Assembly: GCA_944392565.1 (NCBI GenBank)
Contig: CALXWX010000001.1
Location: forward strand, 65,444 to 129,443
DNA length: 64,000 nucleotides
DNA from: an uncultured Alphaproteobacteria bacterium
GTDB lineage: Bacteria > Pseudomonadota > Alphaproteobacteria > Rs-D84
Direction of reading: 5' to 3'
Every line of letters begins with the position of its first letter. Positions within the stretch are counted from its first letter, which is position 1. The position numbers were made by a program, and so were the translations under genes. This document shows, in pieces, positions 49,383-59,330 of the stretch. The notes under the pieces are model-generated. The model had not been told where the DNA came from. It saw nothing but the letters and a program-made list of their open reading frames with translations, and ran no database searches.

Positions 49383-49456
<74 letters not shown>

Positions 49457-49459
<3 letters not shown>

Positions 49460-50036
49460 CAAAATAAAAATCCACCCAACGGGTGGTTTTTGCTTTGTGC
49501 CGGGTTTGACGGGCGATACCACACATTGTGAAACAATGCCGGTTCGACAAGCAGTAGATTTGACCAGCATCGCGCAGTCAAATCGTTACGATTGCCCCGC
49601 AGGCATTTTATATGCCGAGGGACCCCAGGAACGAAGACCACAAAATAAAAATCCACCCAGCGGGTGGTTTTTGTTTTGTGCCGGGGTTGACGGGCGATAC
49701 CACACATTGTGAAACAATGCCGGTTCGACAAGCAGTAGATTTGACCAGCATCGCGCAGTCAAATCGTTACGATTGCCCCGCAGGCATTTTATATGCCGAG
49801 GGACCCCAGGAACGAAGACCACAAAATAAAAATCCACCCAGCGGGTGGTTTTTGTTTTGTGCCGGGGTTGACGGGCGATACCACACATTGTGAAACAATG
49901 CCGGTTCGACAAGCAGTAGATTTGACCAGCATCGCGCAGTCAAATCGTTACGATTGCCCCGCAGGCATTTTATATGCCGAGGGACCCCAGGAACGAAGAC
50001 CACAAAATAAAAATCCACCCAGCGGGTGGTTTTTGT
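49457..50036. repeat. 181-bp tandem repeat, three copies plus partial fourth, starting at the tRNA CCA end
   Basis: Units at 49457-49637, 49638-49818, 49819-49999 and a partial one at 50000-50036. Each begins CCACAAAATAAAAATCCACC and contains a terminator-like hairpin (CCACCC/GGGTGG), CATTGT/ACAATG, ATTTGAC/GTCAAAT, and GGCAT/ATGCC stems. Copy 1 differs at a few bases; copies 2 and 3 look identical. No gene is supported inside; open frames on both strands are by-products. Confidence 0.9.
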
Positions 50037-50147: not shown

Positions 50148-51401
50148 TTATTTTTCAAATCGTTTGATAATCAAACTGGCGTTTGTGCCACCAAATCCGA
50201 ATGAATTGCTTAACGCGACATTTACCGGACGCTGTTTTGCAACATTCGGCACCAGGTCGAAATCACCAACCGCATCTTCTGGATTTTCCAGATTGATTGT
50301 CGGTGGAACAATACCGTCACGAATCGCCATGACACAGAATATTGCCTCTACCCCGCCGGCGGCACCCAACAGATGCCCCGTCATCGATTTTGTTGACGAC
50401 ATTGAAACATTTGTACCGGCAAACAATGTTTGCACCGCGCTTAATTCGCCCAGATCGCCCAAACCAGTTGATGTACCATGTGCATTGATATAGTCAACAT
50501 CACCCGGTTGCATACCAGCATCTTTTAACGCCGCCTGCATGGCACGCATGCCACCTTCGCCACCTGGGGCGGGCGCAGTAATATGATATGCATCACCCGA
50601 CAGACCGTATCCGGCAACCTCTGCATAAATTTTTGCACCACGGGCAACCGCATGTTCATATTCTTCCAGAACCAGAATGCCCGCACCTTCGGCCATAACG
50701 AAACCGTCGCGATCTTTATCCCATGGGCGCGATGCTTTTTCCGGTGCATCATTACGCGTACTTAACGCCTTCATCGCACAGAACCCGGCAACACCAATTT
50801 TACCAACCGCACCTTCGGCACCACCAGCAACCATAACATCAGCATCACCATGTTGAATTAAACGAACCGCTTCACCAATTGAATGCGCCGCCGACGCACA
50901 CGCCGTAACCACAGAAATATTTGGGCCCTTTAATCCATACTTAATAGAAACATGACCGGCGGTCATATTAATAATAACCTTTGGTATAAAGAATGGACTG
51001 ATATGGCGCGGACCATTTGCGTACAGTTCAACGCAATTATCATATATCGTGTTCAATCCACCAATACCGGCACCAATTGATACACCCATACGATTTTTAT
51101 CACCATCATAATCAATTAATCCGGCATCACGAATCGCTTCATCTGCGGCAACCATTCCGTATACAATTGACTTGTCCATTTTACGCTGTTCACGCGCATC
51201 AACAATGGCATCAGGGTTATATTGCCCGGGTTCTGTACCAATAATTGGCAGCCCTGCGATTTGCGATGTTAAATCAGACGCATCAAAAGTGTCAATCTTG
51301 CGCACCCCTGAAACACCGTTTACAATATTTTTCCATGCATATTCAATACCTGTTCCAACCGGCGATACGATTCCCATACCGGTAATAACAACTCTTTTCA
51401 T
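50148..51401 (-). CDS. fabF: 3-oxoacyl-[acyl-carrier-protein] synthase II
   Basis: A 417-residue KAS II (start MKRVVITGMGIVSPVG). Catalytic Cys in VTACASAAHS, His in NAHGTSTGLGD and SMTGHLLGAAGG are present. It elongates acyl-ACP with malonyl-ACP. It follows acpP, as in many bacteria; fabD and fabG are not in this window. Confidence 0.97.
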   Translation of the reverse strand: MKRVVITGMGIVSPVGTGIEYAWKNIVNGVSGVRKIDTFDASDLTSQIAGLPIIGTEPGQYNPDAIVDAREQRKMDKSIVYGMVAADEAIRDAGLIDYDGDKNRMGVSIGAGIGGLNTIYDNCVELYANGPRHISPFFIPKVIINMTAGHVSIKYGLKGPNISVVTACASAAHSIGEAVRLIQHGDADVMVAGGAEGAVGKIGVAGFCAMKALSTRNDAPEKASRPWDKDRDGFVMAEGAGILVLEEYEHAVARGAKIYAEVAGYGLSGDAYHITAPAPGGEGGMRAMQAALKDAGMQPGDVDYINAHGTSTGLGDLGELSAVQTLFAGTNVSMSSTKSMTGHLLGAAGGVEAIFCVMAIRDGIVPPTINLENPEDAVGDFDLVPNVAKQRPVNVALSNSFGFGGTNASLIIKRFEK

Positions 51402-51538: not shown

Positions 51539-51772
51539 TTATTTTTTATGCGCTTCGATATATTTAACAGCATCACCAACCGTTGTTAATTTTGCTGCTT
51601 CTTCATCTGGGATTGTAATATCGAATTCTTTTTCAACTTCCATAACGAATTCAACAACATCCAAAGAATCTGCACCCAAATCGTTAACGAATGAAGATGT
51701 TTCTTCGACTTTCGCTTCCTGAACACCCAATTTGTCGGCTACGATTTTTCTTACTTTTTCAAAAGTTGTCAT
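51539..51772 (-). CDS. acpP: Acyl carrier protein
   Basis: A 77-residue acidic ACP with the 4'-phosphopantetheine Ser in [14 protein letters not shown] precedes the ATG. It carries acyl chains for FabF next door. A hairpin (AAATCCGT/ACGGATTT, about 51475-51512) lies between the two genes and may reduce read-through into fabF. Confidence 0.98.
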
Positions 51773-51906: not shown

Positions 51907-52905
51907 TTATTCCATAATTTCGACCAACAAGTTATTCATATTTGTACGAAATTCTTCCTTGTCAGATGCCCAAACAACCTGGCGCATCAAAAATTTATAA
52001 ACATCGTCCATTGTTAAATTTGGAATACCTGCCGCCGTCGCCACGCGTCGCCATGCAACACGCGGATCCGCCAAATGCCCACGACCACGACCTGGGAAAA
52101 CCCAGCGACTGTCCTGGGGCAAATCCTGCAATAATACAACAGCGGCATCCGACAATGGTCGATCACACCATGTATAATGATTAAAATCTAAATCCCGCCA
52201 CTGCATTGCAAACACCTGGGATTTTGGGGCAAAACCATATGCCAGCATTAAAAATGCCGCACGCAATACCGGTGATGATTCACGCGAAATCGCACGAATT
52301 AACCGTTGAAACCCAGATTTATTTAATGGGCGAACACGCCGCACCTGTTGTATTTTAGGCAACGACGCAACTGGATTTTCTTTTACATATCCCAATTCAA
52401 TTGCATACTTAAAAACACTTTGTAAAAATTCCTGCATCCGCGCCGCAATTGCCCGCCCATCTATTTTTGAAATTACCGCGACAATATCATCAGATTTTAT
52501 ATCTGATAAATTTTTATCAAACAATTGTGATAAATGGCGCTGGACAGCACGTTCCAATTTATCACGGGAATAACCATTGCGCCGCACACGATTCGTCACA
52601 TATATATTTAAAAATTTTTTAAATGTTATTTTATGGCGCCGCTGGACAGGCTGTTGCATCGCGCGCGCCAAAATTTCTGGGACTGTCCCACGCGCGGTTT
52701 CTATATCAACATCAGGATAATTACCAATAATAATTCGTCTGTCGCGCCCATGCACACGTTTTCTGACAAAGAAAGTTTTAACACCACGACTGGTTATATA
52801 CATTCGCAAACGCGGTTCCGATAAATCTTGGACAACATCAAACCCAACACTTGGGGCTGGCAAATTATCCAGTATAAACGGATTAAAAAAGAACTGGTGT
52901 GCCAT
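51907..52905 (-). CDS. Degenerate tyrosine-recombinase-like protein
   Basis: A 332-residue protein with AGGGGAAA ahead of the ATG. The N-terminal arm-type domain (about 10-85, LRMYITSRGVKTFFVRKRV and IGNYPDVDIETAR) and the core-binding domain are recognisable as in prophage integrases. In the catalytic part, the box I Arg (usual G-x-R-x-x-E) reads GFAPKSQVFAMQW, the HxLRR box reads DDVYKFLM, and no terminal Tyr is found. It is thus unlikely to recombine DNA but may still bind it. No phage genes are adjacent. Confidence 0.75.
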   Translation of the reverse strand: MAHQFFFNPFILDNLPAPSVGFDVVQDLSEPRLRMYITSRGVKTFFVRKRVHGRDRRIIIGNYPDVDIETARGTVPEILARAMQQPVQRRHKITFKKFLNIYVTNRVRRNGYSRDKLERAVQRHLSQLFDKNLSDIKSDDIVAVISKIDGRAIAARMQEFLQSVFKYAIELGYVKENPVASLPKIQQVRRVRPLNKSGFQRLIRAISRESSPVLRAAFLMLAYGFAPKSQVFAMQWRDLDFNHYTWCDRPLSDAAVVLLQDLPQDSRWVFPGRGRGHLADPRVAWRRVATAAGIPNLTMDDVYKFLMRQVVWASDKEEFRTNMNNLLVEIME

Positions 52906-52934: not shown

Positions 52935-53318
52935 TTATCTATTACATTGAATCTTGTTCATCCAAAATTTTTTCTTTTTATTTTTTATAATTCTGTAATC
53001 TTCACATGCCGTTATATATTTTTGATTTGCCGCAAAACCGGCACAATTTTCACCAACACATTCGGCACCATTTAAAACATTGTTGCACGGTTTAAAAATT
53101 CTGTATGTTGCAAAATCAGTCATACCATAATGCGACCGATTTTTGAATGTTACATTTTTACATACACACCCCATGCCATTATTCAACAGTTTTTTATAAT
53201 ACCGACAAATCTGTTTGCACTGTTTGCATTCCGCCAACACAGCCTTGTATTCTGTAATATCAGAATAAATATCACATACCCGACTGTCCAAGATATATTT
53301 AAATACATCTGTAAACAT
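52935..53318 (-). CDS. Small Cys-rich protein, tandem family member 4
   Basis: A 127-residue basic protein of the four-gene tandem family. It shares the N-terminal amphipathic pattern (VFKYILDS, DIYSDITEYKAVL), a middle Cys section, ECVGENCAGFAANQKYI near residue 87, and the C-terminal KKKKFWMNK. It has extra cysteines (CKQCKQIC near 31). No signal peptide is seen. It lies 4 bases after the next member, so all are probably cotranscribed. Function unknown; a metal-binding role is a guess from the cysteines. Confidence 0.65.
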   Translation of the reverse strand: MFTDVFKYILDSRVCDIYSDITEYKAVLAECKQCKQICRYYKKLLNNGMGCVCKNVTFKNRSHYGMTDFATYRIFKPCNNVLNGAECVGENCAGFAANQKYITACEDYRIIKNKKKKFWMNKIQCNR

Positions 53319-53322
53319 TAAT

Positions 53323-53727
53323 TTATTTTCCCCTAAATTTTGTTTTCCAATATTGCTTTCTTAAATTTTTAATATTTTCATACATCTGCTTTGATTTAAA
53401 GAATAAATCATTATTCGGCAAATACATACAATCATGATTACAACATGGTGTATTTAAATTAAAACTTGCACATTGCGATTTACACATACGAAAATCAAGA
53501 TTACCACCAAAATAGTCTTGATATACCTGGATACATTTTACAATACACCCATCGCCAGACAAGGTTGCATCATAATTTTGTTCCCCAAAATCCACAACCA
53601 GCGCATCATACGCATCCCAATACTTATCACGCAGCATATTTTCCATACGACATAACTTTCTGTATTCATAAAAATCATGTCGAATTTTTGACCACGGTGT
53701 AAAAATAATATATTTCAGTCCGTACAT
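53323..53727 (-). CDS. Small Cys-rich protein, tandem family member 3
   Basis: A 134-residue protein. The ATG at 53727 (GAGGG upstream) aligns the start with the other members; an ATG at 53739 is also possible. Family features: YIIFTPWSKIRHDFYEYRKL, CSQCASF-type central Cys (CKSQCASFNLNTPCCNHDC), and the C-terminal LRKQYWKTKF. It is the most divergent member. Starts 15 bases after member 2. Confidence 0.65.
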   Translation of the reverse strand: MYGLKYIIFTPWSKIRHDFYEYRKLCRMENMLRDKYWDAYDALVVDFGEQNYDATLSGDGCIVKCIQVYQDYFGGNLDFRMCKSQCASFNLNTPCCNHDCMYLPNNDLFFKSKQMYENIKNLRKQYWKTKFRGK

Positions 53728-53742
53728 CACAACCCTCATTTC

Positions 53743-54165
53743 TTATTTCTGACGCGCCAATAACTTATTTTTCCAGAAATTCTTTTTTTCTTCTGTTAAC
53801 AAATCATATTGCCGTTTCAGCATTGCGTAATGTTTATATTTTTTATATGACGGACACATTTCATTTTGACACAGATCACCACACTTTAAATCCCGTTCAT
53901 TAAAATTATTACAACTATGTTCAATAATAATTGGTTGCCCAGATTGATTTTCTTCATTAACCATCGGGAAATTAACTTCACGTCTGATACATGATACTAT
54001 TTCTTTTTCATGTGAAATATATGGTCGCACTAAAACACGCCGCGCATCGTCCAATCGATACAAGGCATCCGAACATCTGCGTTTTATAATGCCATATTCT
54101 TCTATATCAGCACAAATTTTTTTCCATGGATTTGCCAAAATATAATCAACAATATTTCTTAACAT
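53743..54165 (-). CDS. Small Cys-rich protein, tandem family member 2
   Basis: A 140-residue protein with AAGGAA before the ATG. Family features: IVDYILANPWKKICADIEEY, CGDLCQNEMCPSYKKYKHY near residue 95, and the C-terminal EEKKNFWKNKL. The middle (about 45-85) is variable. A 95-base gap without a reading frame separates it from member 1. Confidence 0.65.
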   Translation of the reverse strand: MLRNIVDYILANPWKKICADIEEYGIIKRRCSDALYRLDDARRVLVRPYISHEKEIVSCIRREVNFPMVNEENQSGQPIIIEHSCNNFNERDLKCGDLCQNEMCPSYKKYKHYAMLKRQYDLLTEEKKNFWKNKLLARQK

Positions 54166-54260
54166 TTTATTTCCTTTAATCAGATACTTTCAAACTCCGC
54201 CAAAATTGACAAAGGCGTGTTTTCAGAACATAACGAACAACAAAATGCACCATCCGTTTT

Positions 54261-54668
54261 TTATTTGGTACGGTTAAACTTTTCACGCCAAAAGCGCTTT
54301 TTCATATCACACACTGTTTTATAATCCTGTAATATGCGGATATAATTTTTGTTTTCAGCAAAGTGCGGGCAAGTCTCGTTAAGACACAGTGTTTCAGACC
54401 AATTATCGCATGCATGTAATGTTTCCGTGTAAGCTTCAACAACTTCGTTTTCTATGACGGGTGGACAACCATTATCTATAACCAAATCATATTTTTGACA
54501 CGTTTTGTAATTCGACACACAGGCACCAAATTCTTTCAATTTTGCATACGCGGTTTTCTTTCGCGCTTTTAAAGATTTATACTTTTGCTGCAGTGCTTTA
54601 TATTCTGCAAAATCACTGCGAATTGAATTGATATTGTTATTTAATAAATATTGTATAACATCAAACAT
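54261..54668 (-). CDS. Small Cys-rich protein, tandem family member 1
   Basis: A 135-residue protein from the ATG at 54668 (AGGAG upstream; an in-frame TTG two codons earlier overlaps that site). Family features: VIQYLLNNNINSIRSDFAEY, then a Lys-rich helix, CLNETCPHFAENKNYI near residue 96, and the end KKRFWREKF. It begins 30 bases past the lepA stop and could be cotranscribed with lepA. Confidence 0.65.
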   Translation of the reverse strand: MFDVIQYLLNNNINSIRSDFAEYKALQQKYKSLKARKKTAYAKLKEFGACVSNYKTCQKYDLVIDNGCPPVIENEVVEAYTETLHACDNWSETLCLNETCPHFAENKNYIRILQDYKTVCDMKKRFWREKFNRTK

Positions 54669-54698
54669 TGGCAACTCCTGTTTTTATTGTGTTCATTT

Positions 54699-56498
54699 CT
54701 AATTCGACACCTTCAATGCATTTATAAATGCGGATTGCGGAATTTCAACATTTCCAAATGTCCGCATTCGTTTTTTCCCCTCTTTCTGCTTCTCCAATAA
54801 CTTGCGTTTACGCGTTATATCCCCGCCATAGCATTTTGCGGTTACATCCTTGCGATACGCCGCGATTGTTTCACGGGCAATAATCTTGCCACCGATTGCC
54901 GCCTGTAATGGTATTTTAAATTGATGCCGCGGGATTAAATCTTTCAATTTTTCAACAATTTGTCGCCCGCGTTTTTCAGCCGCACTGCGATGACACATAA
55001 ACGATAATGGTTCTACATTTTCTTCATTAACCAGTATCGATACTTTTACCAAATCAGACGGTTGATATCCCTGAACGACATAATCAAAAGATGCATACCC
55101 CGATGACAATGATTTAACCCGGTCATAAAAATCGAATACAATTTCTGCCAACGGCAACTGATAAACCAATACCGCCCGATTCCCGACATACGAAATATTT
55201 TCCTGGATACCACGGCGTTCTGAACATAAATTCATAATTCCGCCCATATATTTATCAGGCATCATAATTGTTGCACGCACCCATGGTTCTTCAATCGATG
55301 CAATTTTTGTAACATCTGGCATATCCGCAGGATTTTCTAAATCAATAATACTGCCATCGCGCATATGCACCTTGTATAACACACTGGGGACAGTATTAAT
55401 TAAGTTCAAATTAAATTCACGCCGCAGCCGTTCGCTGATAATTTCCATATGCAACAAACCCAAGAATCCGCATCGCAAGCCAAACCCCAACGCCGATGAT
55501 TTTTCCACCGTGAACATAAACGACGCATCATTCAGCGCCAGCTTTTCTGCCCCATCACGCAGGTTTGGATAATCATCTGCCTCGACCGGAAAGAATGACG
55601 AAAACACCACCGGCACCGATGGCTTAAACCCCGGCAACGGTTCACAATTTGCGCCACCGCGGCTATCCACAATTGTATCGCCAACCTTGCAATCATGAAT
55701 TGTCTTCATACCTGTAATAATAAATCCAATTTCACCGGTATTCAGTGAATCCGCATCAACCATCTTTGGCGTAAAATATCCAATTTTTTCAATTGTGTAT
55801 TCTGCGGCGGTTGCCATAAATCGAATTTTCTGCCCCCGCATCAACCGCCCATCAACAACGCGAACTAAAATAACCACCCCTAAATAAGAATCATACCACG
55901 AATCAACCAACAGCGCGCGTGCCGGCGCATTTTCATCACCATCTGGGGCTGGTAATTTATGAACAATTTCTTCCAGCAATTCCGGCACCCCGGCACCAGT
56001 TTTACCAGACACACACAATGCCCCTTTTGCATCCAGACCGATAACATCCGCGATTTGGGCGCGCGCGCCATCAACATCACTGGACGGTAAATCAATTTTG
56101 TTTAACACTGGCAACATTTCCAAATCATTATCCAACGCCAGATATGCATTTGCCAGTGTTTGCGCCTGGACCCCCTGGGTCGCATCGACTAAAATCAGCG
56201 CCCCTTCACACGCCGCCAGCGACCGCGACACTTCGTACGAAAAATCAACATGCCCCGGCGTATCCATTAAATTCAGCTGATAATTTTGCCCATCACGCGC
56301 GGTATAGTTCAAACGCACTGTCTGGGCTTTTATTGTAATTCCGCGTTCGCGTTCAATATCCATAGAATCCAGAACTTGGGCTTTCATTTCGCGCGATTGC
56401 AACCCGCCCGTATATTCAATCAACCGATCCGACAGTGTTGATTTACCATGATCAATATGGGCAACGATTGCAAAGTTTCTGATATTTTTCTGATTCAT
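54699..56498 (-). CDS. lepA: Elongation factor 4 (LepA)
   Basis: A 599-residue back-translocating GTPase. [17 protein letters not shown] and NKID are intact; the LepA-specific C-terminal domain ([19 protein letters not shown]-type, here [17 protein letters not shown]) is complete. The ATG at 56498 is preferred to one at 56522 because it starts the conserved [16 protein letters not shown]. Confidence 0.97.
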
Positions 56499-56570
56499 AC
56501 AAACCCCAACGCTATGCGGCAATAATACACCAGTATATCAGAACTTGCAATCAGTTTTTTTATCAAAAAA

Positions 56571-57038
56571 TTACCGTGTTTTATTAACCAATGACTTTGC
56601 CATCAGCAAATTTGCATTTACCTTATGAAAACCATTTTTCGCATAAAAACTAGATGCCTGAACCGTTGGCGCCCCATACAGAATAATTTCAGACACATTT
56701 TTATCACGGCAATAATCTTCATACGCACGCAATAATTCATGTCCGATACCTGCCCGCTGATATTTTTTATCGACATACAGATTTTCAATTTTTGCCTGGA
56801 TGCCATATGGTGTATACAATTTAAAATCCGGCGTCTGTAAAATTTTACCCTTTATAAATCCCAACGGGAACGCCGCGCCATTAAACACAAACATAATATG
56901 CCCGCGTCTTTCAATATCTTCACGCAGCGTATGATACAACGCCACCGCCTCACCCGGTCTGGTTTGATCTGTAATCATATAACAGTCTTTCAGTAATTCA
57001 TCTGATACAGTAAAAATTTGTTGTATACCTGTTTTCAT
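56571..57038 (-). CDS. GNAT-family N-acetyltransferase
   Basis: A 155-residue GNAT protein. IENLYVDKKYQRAGIGHELL holds the acetyl-CoA-binding R-x-x-G-x-G loop; SSFYAKNGFHKV is the typical last motif. Its start overlaps the rbfA stop by four bases (ATGA), so the two are translationally coupled. The acceptor (small molecule or protein N-terminus) is unknown. Confidence 0.85.
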   Translation of the reverse strand: MKTGIQQIFTVSDELLKDCYMITDQTRPGEAVALYHTLREDIERRGHIMFVFNGAAFPLGFIKGKILQTPDFKLYTPYGIQAKIENLYVDKKYQRAGIGHELLRAYEDYCRDKNVSEIILYGAPTVQASSFYAKNGFHKVNANLLMAKSLVNKTR

Positions 57039-57391
57039 TTTTCATCCAATTTGTTCAGCAGTTTATCTATTCTCTCTGCCCTGTCCAAAGTGTCATCATA
57101 TTCGAATCGGATATCTGGGACATATTTTTGATTCATTCGCGCCCCCAGTTCATACCGCACCGTTTTTGTAATATCATTTAACCGGCGCTGTACTGCATCA
57201 ATATCATCATTACGCGAATAATAGAACAGCCGCACGAATTGCAGTCCCCCATGTGCCACCGCCCCAACCAACGACACCCCAGAAATTAATTTATCATCCG
57301 AATAATTATCGCGCAAAATTTCCGCCACCAGTGTTTGCACTTTACTGGCGACACGCGCACCCCGATTAGAATTATTTTGTTGTTTCATCAT
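57035..57391 (-). CDS. rbfA: Ribosome-binding factor A
   Basis: A 118-residue RbfA. The KH-like core RVASKVQTLVAEILRDNYSD, VRLFYYSRND and the C-terminal YVPDIRFEYDDTLDRAERID are diagnostic. It matures the 16S rRNA 5' end. In many genomes it follows infB; here it heads a two-gene unit with a GNAT gene and no infB beside it. Confidence 0.92.
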   Translation of the reverse strand: MMKQQNNSNRGARVASKVQTLVAEILRDNYSDDKLISGVSLVGAVAHGGLQFVRLFYYSRNDDIDAVQRRLNDITKTVRYELGARMNQKYVPDIRFEYDDTLDRAERIDKLLNKLDEK

Positions 57392-57462
57392 TATATATTG
57401 TAAATTATAAGATATTAATTTAGAATCAAGTAAATTTTTTTGACCAAGGAAAGGAAAAACAC

Positions 57463-58039: not shown

Positions 58040-59330
58040 TTGCCCCTCTGCCGCCCCGCCCCCATTGTCATGCGTGACGCAATCCACAATCTGTCATTGC
58101 GGACCGCGACACAATCCACACACTTGTCATTGCGAGTGAAACGAAGCAATCCAGTCGGTTATGCACGCGCATATGCGCGACATTATTATAACTGGATCGC
58201 CACGGTCGCGTTGCTCCCTCGCGATGACAAGAAACGAATAACGACCACACTCTCTTGTCATTGCGAGTGAAACGAAGCAATCCAGTAAATAATGCACGCG
58301 CGTATGCGCGACTCTATTATAACTGGATCGCCACGGTCGCAATGCTCCCTCGCGATGAATCCGAGTATGTGAAAACAAGCGGCAGCGCAGTTTGAACAAA
58401 TACGAGGATACGCACAGGACGCAACGCGTCCGAGCGACACATTAATAGAACACAATAAAAAATTAAGCACCACACCCAGTTCCCCTCTATGGAGGGGTGC
58501 CGCGCAGCGGCGGGGTGGTCAGAGAATGCAAGAATGTGCCGCGTTTCTCTATCATCCCGCGCCAAACACACTCCCTTGTCATTGCGCCCCCCCCCTTGTC
58601 ATTGCGAGCGCAGCGAAGCAATCCAGTAAATAATGCACGCACGCGAATGCGTGCGACTTTATTATTCACTAGATCGCTACGACCGCAATGCTCCCCTCGC
58701 GATGAATCCGAGTATGTGAAAACAAGCGGCAGCGCAGTTTGAACAAATACGAGGATACGCACAGGACGCAACGCGTCCGAGCGACACATTAATAGAACAC
58801 AATAAAAAAATAAAGCACCACACCCAGTTCCCCTCTATGGAGGGGTGCCGCGCAGCGGCGGGGTGGTCAGAGAATTCAAGAAAATATTATCACGCCCACA
58901 CACTCCCTTGTCATTGCGAGCGCAGCGAAGCAATCCAGTAAATAATGCACGCGCGTATGCGCGACTCTATTATAACTGGATCGCCACGGTCGCGTTGCTC
59001 CCTCGCGATGACAAGAAACGAATAACGACCACACTCCCTTGTCATGCGCGGTGCAGCGAAGCAATCCAGTAAATAATGCACGCGCGTATGCGCGACTCTA
59101 TTATAACTGGATCGCCACGGTCGCACTGCTCCCCTCGCGATGAATCCGAGTATGTGAAAACAAGCGGCAGCGCAGTTTGAACAAATACGAGGATACGCAC
59201 AGGACGCAACGCGTCCGAGCGACACATTAATAGAACACAATAAAAAATTAAGCACTGTGCCAAGTTCCCCTCCGTTGGAGGGGTGCCGCGCAGCGGCGGG
59301 GTGGTCAGAGAATACAAGAAAATATTACCA
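58040..59330. repeat. Composite array of REP-type elements (types A, B and C)
   Basis: No gene is supported in this 1.3-kb stretch. Type A units (CATTGCGAGTGAAACGAAGC ... GGATCGCCACGGTCGC, ending CTCGCGATGA, with inner palindrome CGCGCGTATGCGCG) lie at about 58127-58232, 58256-58358, 58596-58706, 58911-59022 and 59039-59142. Type C (GAATCCGAGTATGTGAAAAC to ATTAATAGAACACAATAAAA) follows three of them at about 58358, 58704 and 59143. Type B (see 10102) follows each type C at about 58477, 58826 and 59262. The order A-C-B is repeated three times. Confidence 0.9.

Follow-up and report, generated by a model that had tools for sequence, protein, structure and literature searches.

The array and its setting

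The window, that is, the whole stretch of 64,000 nucleotides that was analyzed, belongs to a genome of 939,082 bases that is 99% complete. Its minus strand carries a run of four small co-directional ORFs at 52935-54668, encoding proteins of 135, 140, 138 and 127 residues. They are designated copies 1 to 4, and the interval between lepA and c2 in which they lie is termed the slot; G and L numbers refer to genomes and loci, respectively. The order of transcription in the window is lepA, copy 1, copy 2, copy 3, copy 4, c2, acpP and fabF, with the following coordinates.

54699..56522, minus strand: lepA, at the 5' border of the slot (the ORF opens with a TTG; the start is likely the ATG at 56498)
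54261..54668, minus strand: copy 1, Cys4 protein, predicted helical hairpin, 135 aa (137 aa from the TTG at 54674); ORF, alignment, profile
53743..54165, minus strand: copy 2, Cys4 protein, 140 aa; ORF, alignment, profile
53323..53739, minus strand: copy 3, Cys4 protein, 138 aa; ORF, alignment, profile, AlphaFold2
52935..53318, minus strand: copy 4, Cys4 protein, 127 aa; ORF, alignment, profile
51907..52905, minus strand: c2, 332 aa, P4-type tyrosine recombinase, truncated and lacking catalytic residues, at the 3' border of the slot; Pfam and alignment
51539..51772, minus strand: acpP, downstream border gene
50148..51401, minus strand: fabF, downstream border gene

The array genes are separated from one another by 3-95 bp, from lepA by 30 bp and from c2 by 29 bp, and the array is probably transcribed as part of the lepA operon. 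An Rfam scan found no match inside the slot.

A preliminary description of this DNA had reported four tandem paralogues beside lepA, with shared N- and C-terminal signatures and no signal peptides, and all of this was borne out. The four copies align over their full length, with Y8, D20, E23-Y24, three cysteines, W119 and K122 invariant (numbering of the first sequence). The training set of an HMM comprised 54 relatives, all drawn from other genomes and excluding the window as well as the two genomes closest to it; this HMM matched the four copies with E values of 2.2e-27, 7.4e-27, 7.9e-23 and 2.9e-15. When the same HMM was applied to the 377 ORFs of the window and 200 shuffled copies, nothing else scored below 0.1 (next best 0.11). 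The independent profile scores and the shuffle control indicate that the four genes are true paralogues and that their likeness is not due to chance. No hydrophobic signal peptide was seen on inspection of the four copies, and the proteins are proposed to be cytoplasmic.

Several other features were recorded. Between an AMP-ligase gene and fabF, at 49455-50036 of the window, a 181-bp unit is repeated in tandem, its three copies being 99% identical, and clustered 131-bp intergenic repeats, which start CTTGTCATTGCGAG and resemble dispersed palindromic repeats, occupy 58123-59143. Another small cluster of CxxC...C proteins was seen at L040:3773-4499, between fabF and the AMP-ligase gene. A VirB4-type ATPase gene is located at L139:8806-11214 (G000:C1, about 295.8-298.2 kb); a complete secretion locus was not found.

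The c2 gene encodes a catalytically dead integrase

The protein encoded by c2 matched Phage_int_M in Pfam above the cut-off (E 6e-8) and Arm-DNA-bind_3 just under it (E 6e-6), and with its arm-binding and core-binding domains it belongs to the P4-type integrase superfamily. The likeness to P4-type tyrosine recombinases, from which this neighbor derives, does not concern the array, and c2 differs from them in having no catalytic residues and in ending early. In an alignment of 38 c2-cluster proteins, 36 of which are slot copies from L034-L075, the catalytic Arg, HxxR and Tyr were missing in 36/36 slot copies, which read YGFAPK... and TMDDVxKF at these positions and end ahead of the Tyr. An active integrase in L066 shows ...GQRRQN... 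and HDLRRTF in the same alignment. By these features c2 is not an active tyrosine recombinase, in agreement with the earlier remark that the recombinase-like neighbor has no active site.

In the order sample, 165/190 genomes gave a match to c2, among them 21/23 of the sister-genus genomes; the catalytic positions were read in the slot copies alone. In many genomes c2 adjoins lepA with no array between, and its dN/dS is about 0.07-0.1. Since c2 is near-universal without catalytic residues and is clearly constrained, it was probably domesticated as a DNA-binding protein and is probably older than the array; its family-wide occurrence, often array-less, likewise suggests that the array arrived later than c2. 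It provides a clear case of a recombinase that lacks its catalytic residues and is nevertheless retained as a core gene. An apparent co-loss of c2 and the array (Fisher p 0.001) was withdrawn because the four c2-negative genomes that were checked also gave no lepA match, so that the locus may simply be missing from them.

Distribution of the family and variation of the slot

Members of the Cys4 family were detected in 117/156 congeners (87/103 among good assemblies). Outside the genus, matches were found only in G196 and G209, which represent two other genera of the same family, and both of these members also lie in the lepA-c2 slot. A class-wide sample of 385 genomes gave no match outside the genus. 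The Cys4 family is lineage-restricted.

The layout of the slot is lepA-[0-5 copies]-c2-acpP-fabF, and the variable copy number anticipated in the preliminary description was thereby confirmed at a single site in related genomes. In 35/35 array-bearing slots, lepA, the array and c2 are co-directional and in the same order, with a median gap of 18 bp. There is one copy in 19 of these slots, two in 7, three in 6, four in 2 and five in 1. An empty slot was seen in G139, G149, G160, G013, G121 and G111, and also in sister-genus genomes, e.g., G204, G207, G212 and G216.

Seven more slots (L109-L113, L115 and L121) contain, from lepA to c2, look-alike ORFs with a helix, a Cys, a CxxC, a helix and FRFWK. 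Homology of these ORFs to the Cys4 family is not claimed, as the profiles align only a coiled-coil stretch with a probability of 21%. In a sister-genus genome, the slot holds extra Nudix-like and peptidase-like ORFs (L131:2500-3600), and extra ORFs with no assigned identity occupy the slot at L065:7951-9171; in these two cases the slot appears as if it were capturing cargo.

Conservation and predicted structure

An iterative search over 43 loci yielded 74 family members. The cysteines are present in 73/73 (C1), 73/73 (C2), 73/74 (C3) and 74/74 (C4) sequences of the family alignment, with the usual spacing C-x24/25-C-x8-C-x4-C. The preliminary description had named a Cys-rich core but not a fourth conserved cysteine, C1, which lies in a GC[IV] motif ahead of the CxxxxC pair. 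Strong conservation among the 74 members was also seen at Y, D, E-Y, N, Y, F-W and K. The least conserved segment, with 0.73 bits per column, is the one of 0-26 residues that separates C1 from the N-terminal helix, and the most conserved, with 1.58 bits per column, is the one around C2-C4. The family is basic (median pI 9.2), each helical arm carrying a charge of about +5 and the middle, or head, about -2. Some copies are truncated, e.g., L039:7962-8243.

AlphaFold2 was run on 13 sequences. The model of copy 3 (mean pLDDT 87) has helices at residues 2-13, 16-47 and 107-136 and strands at 48-54, 66-74 and 81-89. Judged by position, C1 (65) lies ahead of the second strand and C2 (90) after the third, while C3 (99) and C4 (104) run into the last helix. 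In the model of copy 1 (pLDDT 70) the helical arms are confident and residues 49-89 are disordered. The models suggest that the family fold is a helical hairpin that bears a beta/cysteine head. The near-invariant spacing of the four cysteines is compatible with a metal site, as the preliminary description had expected; it is plausible for zinc in particular, and on this sequence pattern the set is probably a zinc site.

Searches for known relatives

When 59 members were scanned against Pfam, PHROGs, NCBIfam and PADLOC, no family was matched by more than one member, the best E value being about 6e-4. Assignments to known families were dropped, each match having come from one member alone. Sequence matches in the PDB to occludin, MARVELD2 and gp32, at E 0.1-6, were dismissed as coiled-coil noise. 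Foldseek comparison of the copy 3 model with the PDB and viral predicted structures retrieved no fold at E <= 0.001. No Cys4 relative was found in phage records and viral contigs, PADLOC gave no defense family match for the array, and no defense, phage or effector family was matched by the array proteins. A search of the literature found no paper on the family. The Cys4 family is undescribed in the resources searched, as would be expected of the orphan family that the preliminary description had supposed.

The array proteins bear some likeness to the DksA/TraR zinc-finger coiled-coil proteins, which are also small and cytoplasmic and combine a helical hairpin with a four-Cys site. The DksA/TraR zinc finger has two CxxC pairs in the arrangement CxxC-x17-CxxC, whereas the array proteins have the spacing C-x24/25-C-x8-C-x4-C and no Pfam, NCBIfam or fold match; by spacing and Pfam they fall outside the DksA/TraR family. 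A weak local likeness to the zinc region of T4 gp32 (PDB 2a1k), CxxxxC...NxxY...W, was also noted at E 0.2, but the match is not significant and the size, ligands and fold context differ.

Divergence and selection

The genes of the array have diverged far more than their surroundings. Compared with their orthologues in L034, from the near relative G189, copies 2, 3 and 4 are 56, 50 and 54% identical (dN 0.35, 0.44 and 0.34). In the same comparison the neighbors are 98% (LepA), 99% (FabF), 94% (RbfA), 93% (GNAT protein) and 89% (c2) identical, with dN values of 0.013, 0.008, 0.036, 0.035 and 0.063, respectively. Along the locus, identity falls sharply within the array and rises again at c2 and acpP. 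The dS of copies 2-4 is also raised, to 1.2-1.4, indicating that part of the divergence reflects replacement by divergent alleles or older splits. In the pair G038/G010, compared at matched dS, the Cys4 gene has dN 0.219 and dS 0.42, as against 0.011/0.59 for lepA and 0.029/0.65 for c2. Here amino acid change is truly fast, with a dN/dS near 0.5. The rapid divergence noted in the preliminary description thus holds at the level of amino acids, but exchange of divergent alleles accounts for part of it.

Whole-gene dN/dS of the family is mostly 0.2-0.6. Positive selection in the middle part, also put forward in the preliminary description, was suggested in one branch only, that of the out-of-slot copy described below, where the middle segment carries 10.5 nonsynonymous and 0.5-1.5 synonymous changes; the resulting ratio of 1.7-5 is not significant because the synonymous counts are too low. 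In other pairs the dN/dS of the middle segment is 0.0-0.64, and in G039/G049 nonsynonymous and synonymous change are both elevated there, a pattern that resembles mosaic replacement. These comparisons do not establish positive selection in the Cys4 family.

The tree, in which deep branches are weakly supported, contains no sister pair from one genome, and the window copies pair in order with the four of L034. The paralogues of one genome are therefore not recent tandem duplicates; each array combines old types that several species have in common.

Exchange between species

Copy 1 is 96% identical to its counterpart in L034 (dS 0.11) and 92% identical to that in L035 (dS 0.13, where the dS of lepA is 0.96). 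The tract of high identity extends into the 3' end of lepA and is the product of recombination between species. An initial view that only copy 1 shows introgression was withdrawn, as rbfA and a DedA-like gene, within 54699-57400 of the window, also have a dS of 0.11-0.13 with that genome, G163, against 0.96 for lepA. The chromosome around this interval is a mosaic of exchanged tracts.

A Cys4 copy outside the slot is common to G025, G029, G042 and G162.

L066:8289-8660: out-of-slot Cys4 gene
L067:8210-8581: out-of-slot Cys4 gene
L069:8120-8491: out-of-slot Cys4 gene
L140:7877-8248: out-of-slot Cys4 gene

Among the three that were compared, dS is 0.04-0.07, against 1.0-1.3 for lepA and fabF (lepA 1.2-1.3). 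The shared block of about 0.5-0.6 kb consists of the gene and up to about 250 bp upstream, and the flanks are otherwise unrelated. The out-of-slot copy is a recent horizontal transfer of a single gene. In L069 it is preceded by a good TTGACA...TATAAT-like promoter sequence. Transposase or repeat ends were not found at these copies. An active integrase, an HNH nuclease, an ankyrin protein, a serine recombinase and DNA methyltransferases are encoded within several kb of them; these neighborhoods fit variable chromosomal regions and are no proof of function. ComEC is absent, so natural competence by that route is unsupported as the mechanism of exchange.

Discussion

The interpretation that we tentatively prefer, with rather less than even confidence, is that the Cys4 proteins are zinc-stabilized basic adaptors whose variable head meets a changing partner, and that they form an exchangeable repertoire of a conflict type. 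The two helical arms would form a hairpin, and the four-Cys site, probably occupied by Zn2+, would pin the beta-rich head to the tip of this hairpin. The arms, which are basic and conserved (D-x-x-EY-x-x-L and FW-x-x-KF-x-x-x-[KR]), may dock on a shared cellular partner, for which nucleic acid and the neighboring DNA-binding dead integrase c2 are candidates. The variable head would contact the changing partner, which may be a phage, mobile element, competitor or host molecule, and the repertoire would turn over by gain and loss of genes in the slot, by swapping of alleles between species and by fast amino acid change. We infer a conflict or host-interaction role, as the preliminary description did, because a fixed slot, changing content, inter-species exchange and fast change are combined at one locus. 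The force of this argument is limited: relaxed constraint and recombination could explain much of the pattern, dN/dS being mostly 0.2-0.6; genes other than those of the array are exchanged too, as the low dS of rbfA and the DedA gene with G163 illustrates; and the searches for defense, phage and effector families gave no match.

Lineage-specific tandem paralogue arrays with allele exchange occur in host-associated bacteria. The locus resembles them in its fixed place, variable copy number, inter-lineage exchange and fast divergence, but its types are old, recent duplicates were not seen, and the proteins, which are proposed to be cytoplasmic, are linked to lepA and a dead integrase. As an evolutionary style the exchangeable lineage-specific array is known; its pairing with a dead integrase in what is probably the lepA operon is new.

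The possibility was considered that the proteins are housekeeping-linked regulators, basic zinc-hairpin proteins that act on RNA, the ribosome or RNA polymerase and are tied to the lepA operon, their divergence being fast drift since only fold and charge would matter. This explanation is a serious one, though on balance unlikely. It would account for the consistently basic arms, for the fixed place behind a translation factor gene in all array-bearing slots and for a dN/dS below 1 in most pairs. A core regulator would not be expected, however, to be missing from several congeners and most sister-genus genomes, and exchange between species and a copy number of 0-5 would be unusual for one.

Alternatively, c2 and the array may derive from one ancient integrative element, of which the array would be leftover exchangeable cargo and the slot a site of gene capture, retained irrespective of the function of that cargo. 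The occurrence of c2 alone throughout the family, often beside lepA without an array, argues against a common origin and makes this reading improbable, even though the dead integrase adjoins every slot array, the slots of L131 and L065 hold other ORFs and the out-of-slot copy has moved between species.

It is more doubtful that a type IV-like secretion system delivers the proteins into a competitor or partner cell, with the basic FWxxKF C-terminus as the export signal. No type IV secretion locus was established, the export signal is a resemblance only, conserved reduced cysteines suit a cytoplasmic site, and the genes probably lie in a housekeeping operon; these points weigh against the conserved basic C-terminus, the VirB4-type ATPase encoded in the genome and the description of related reduced-genome gut alphaproteobacteria as probably partner-dependent (PMC12306168). 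That the copies are decaying relics under weak constraint with no adaptive role is disfavored as very improbable, for despite the high divergence and some truncated copies, the cysteines and FW are almost invariant over about 74 members, dN/dS is below 1 and the frames are open in most of the 117 species.

As a speculation to which we give little credence, the lepA-c2 slot might be a domesticated conflict locus, in which c2 serves as a conserved DNA-binding anchor and the Cys4 hairpins as variable specificity factors aimed at phages, mobile elements or a partner cell in a lineage with reduced genomes. If true, the arrangement would represent a modular system of a new kind. Candidatus Enterousia, of the order Rs-D84, are reduced-genome gut bacteria thought to be partner-dependent (PMC12306168). 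Genomes of less than 1 Mb shed dispensable genes, yet more than 100 species still hold this fast-changing family at one place. Should these proteins be directed at phages, competitors or a partner cell, the slot would be the main arms-race locus of a common, little-studied gut lineage.
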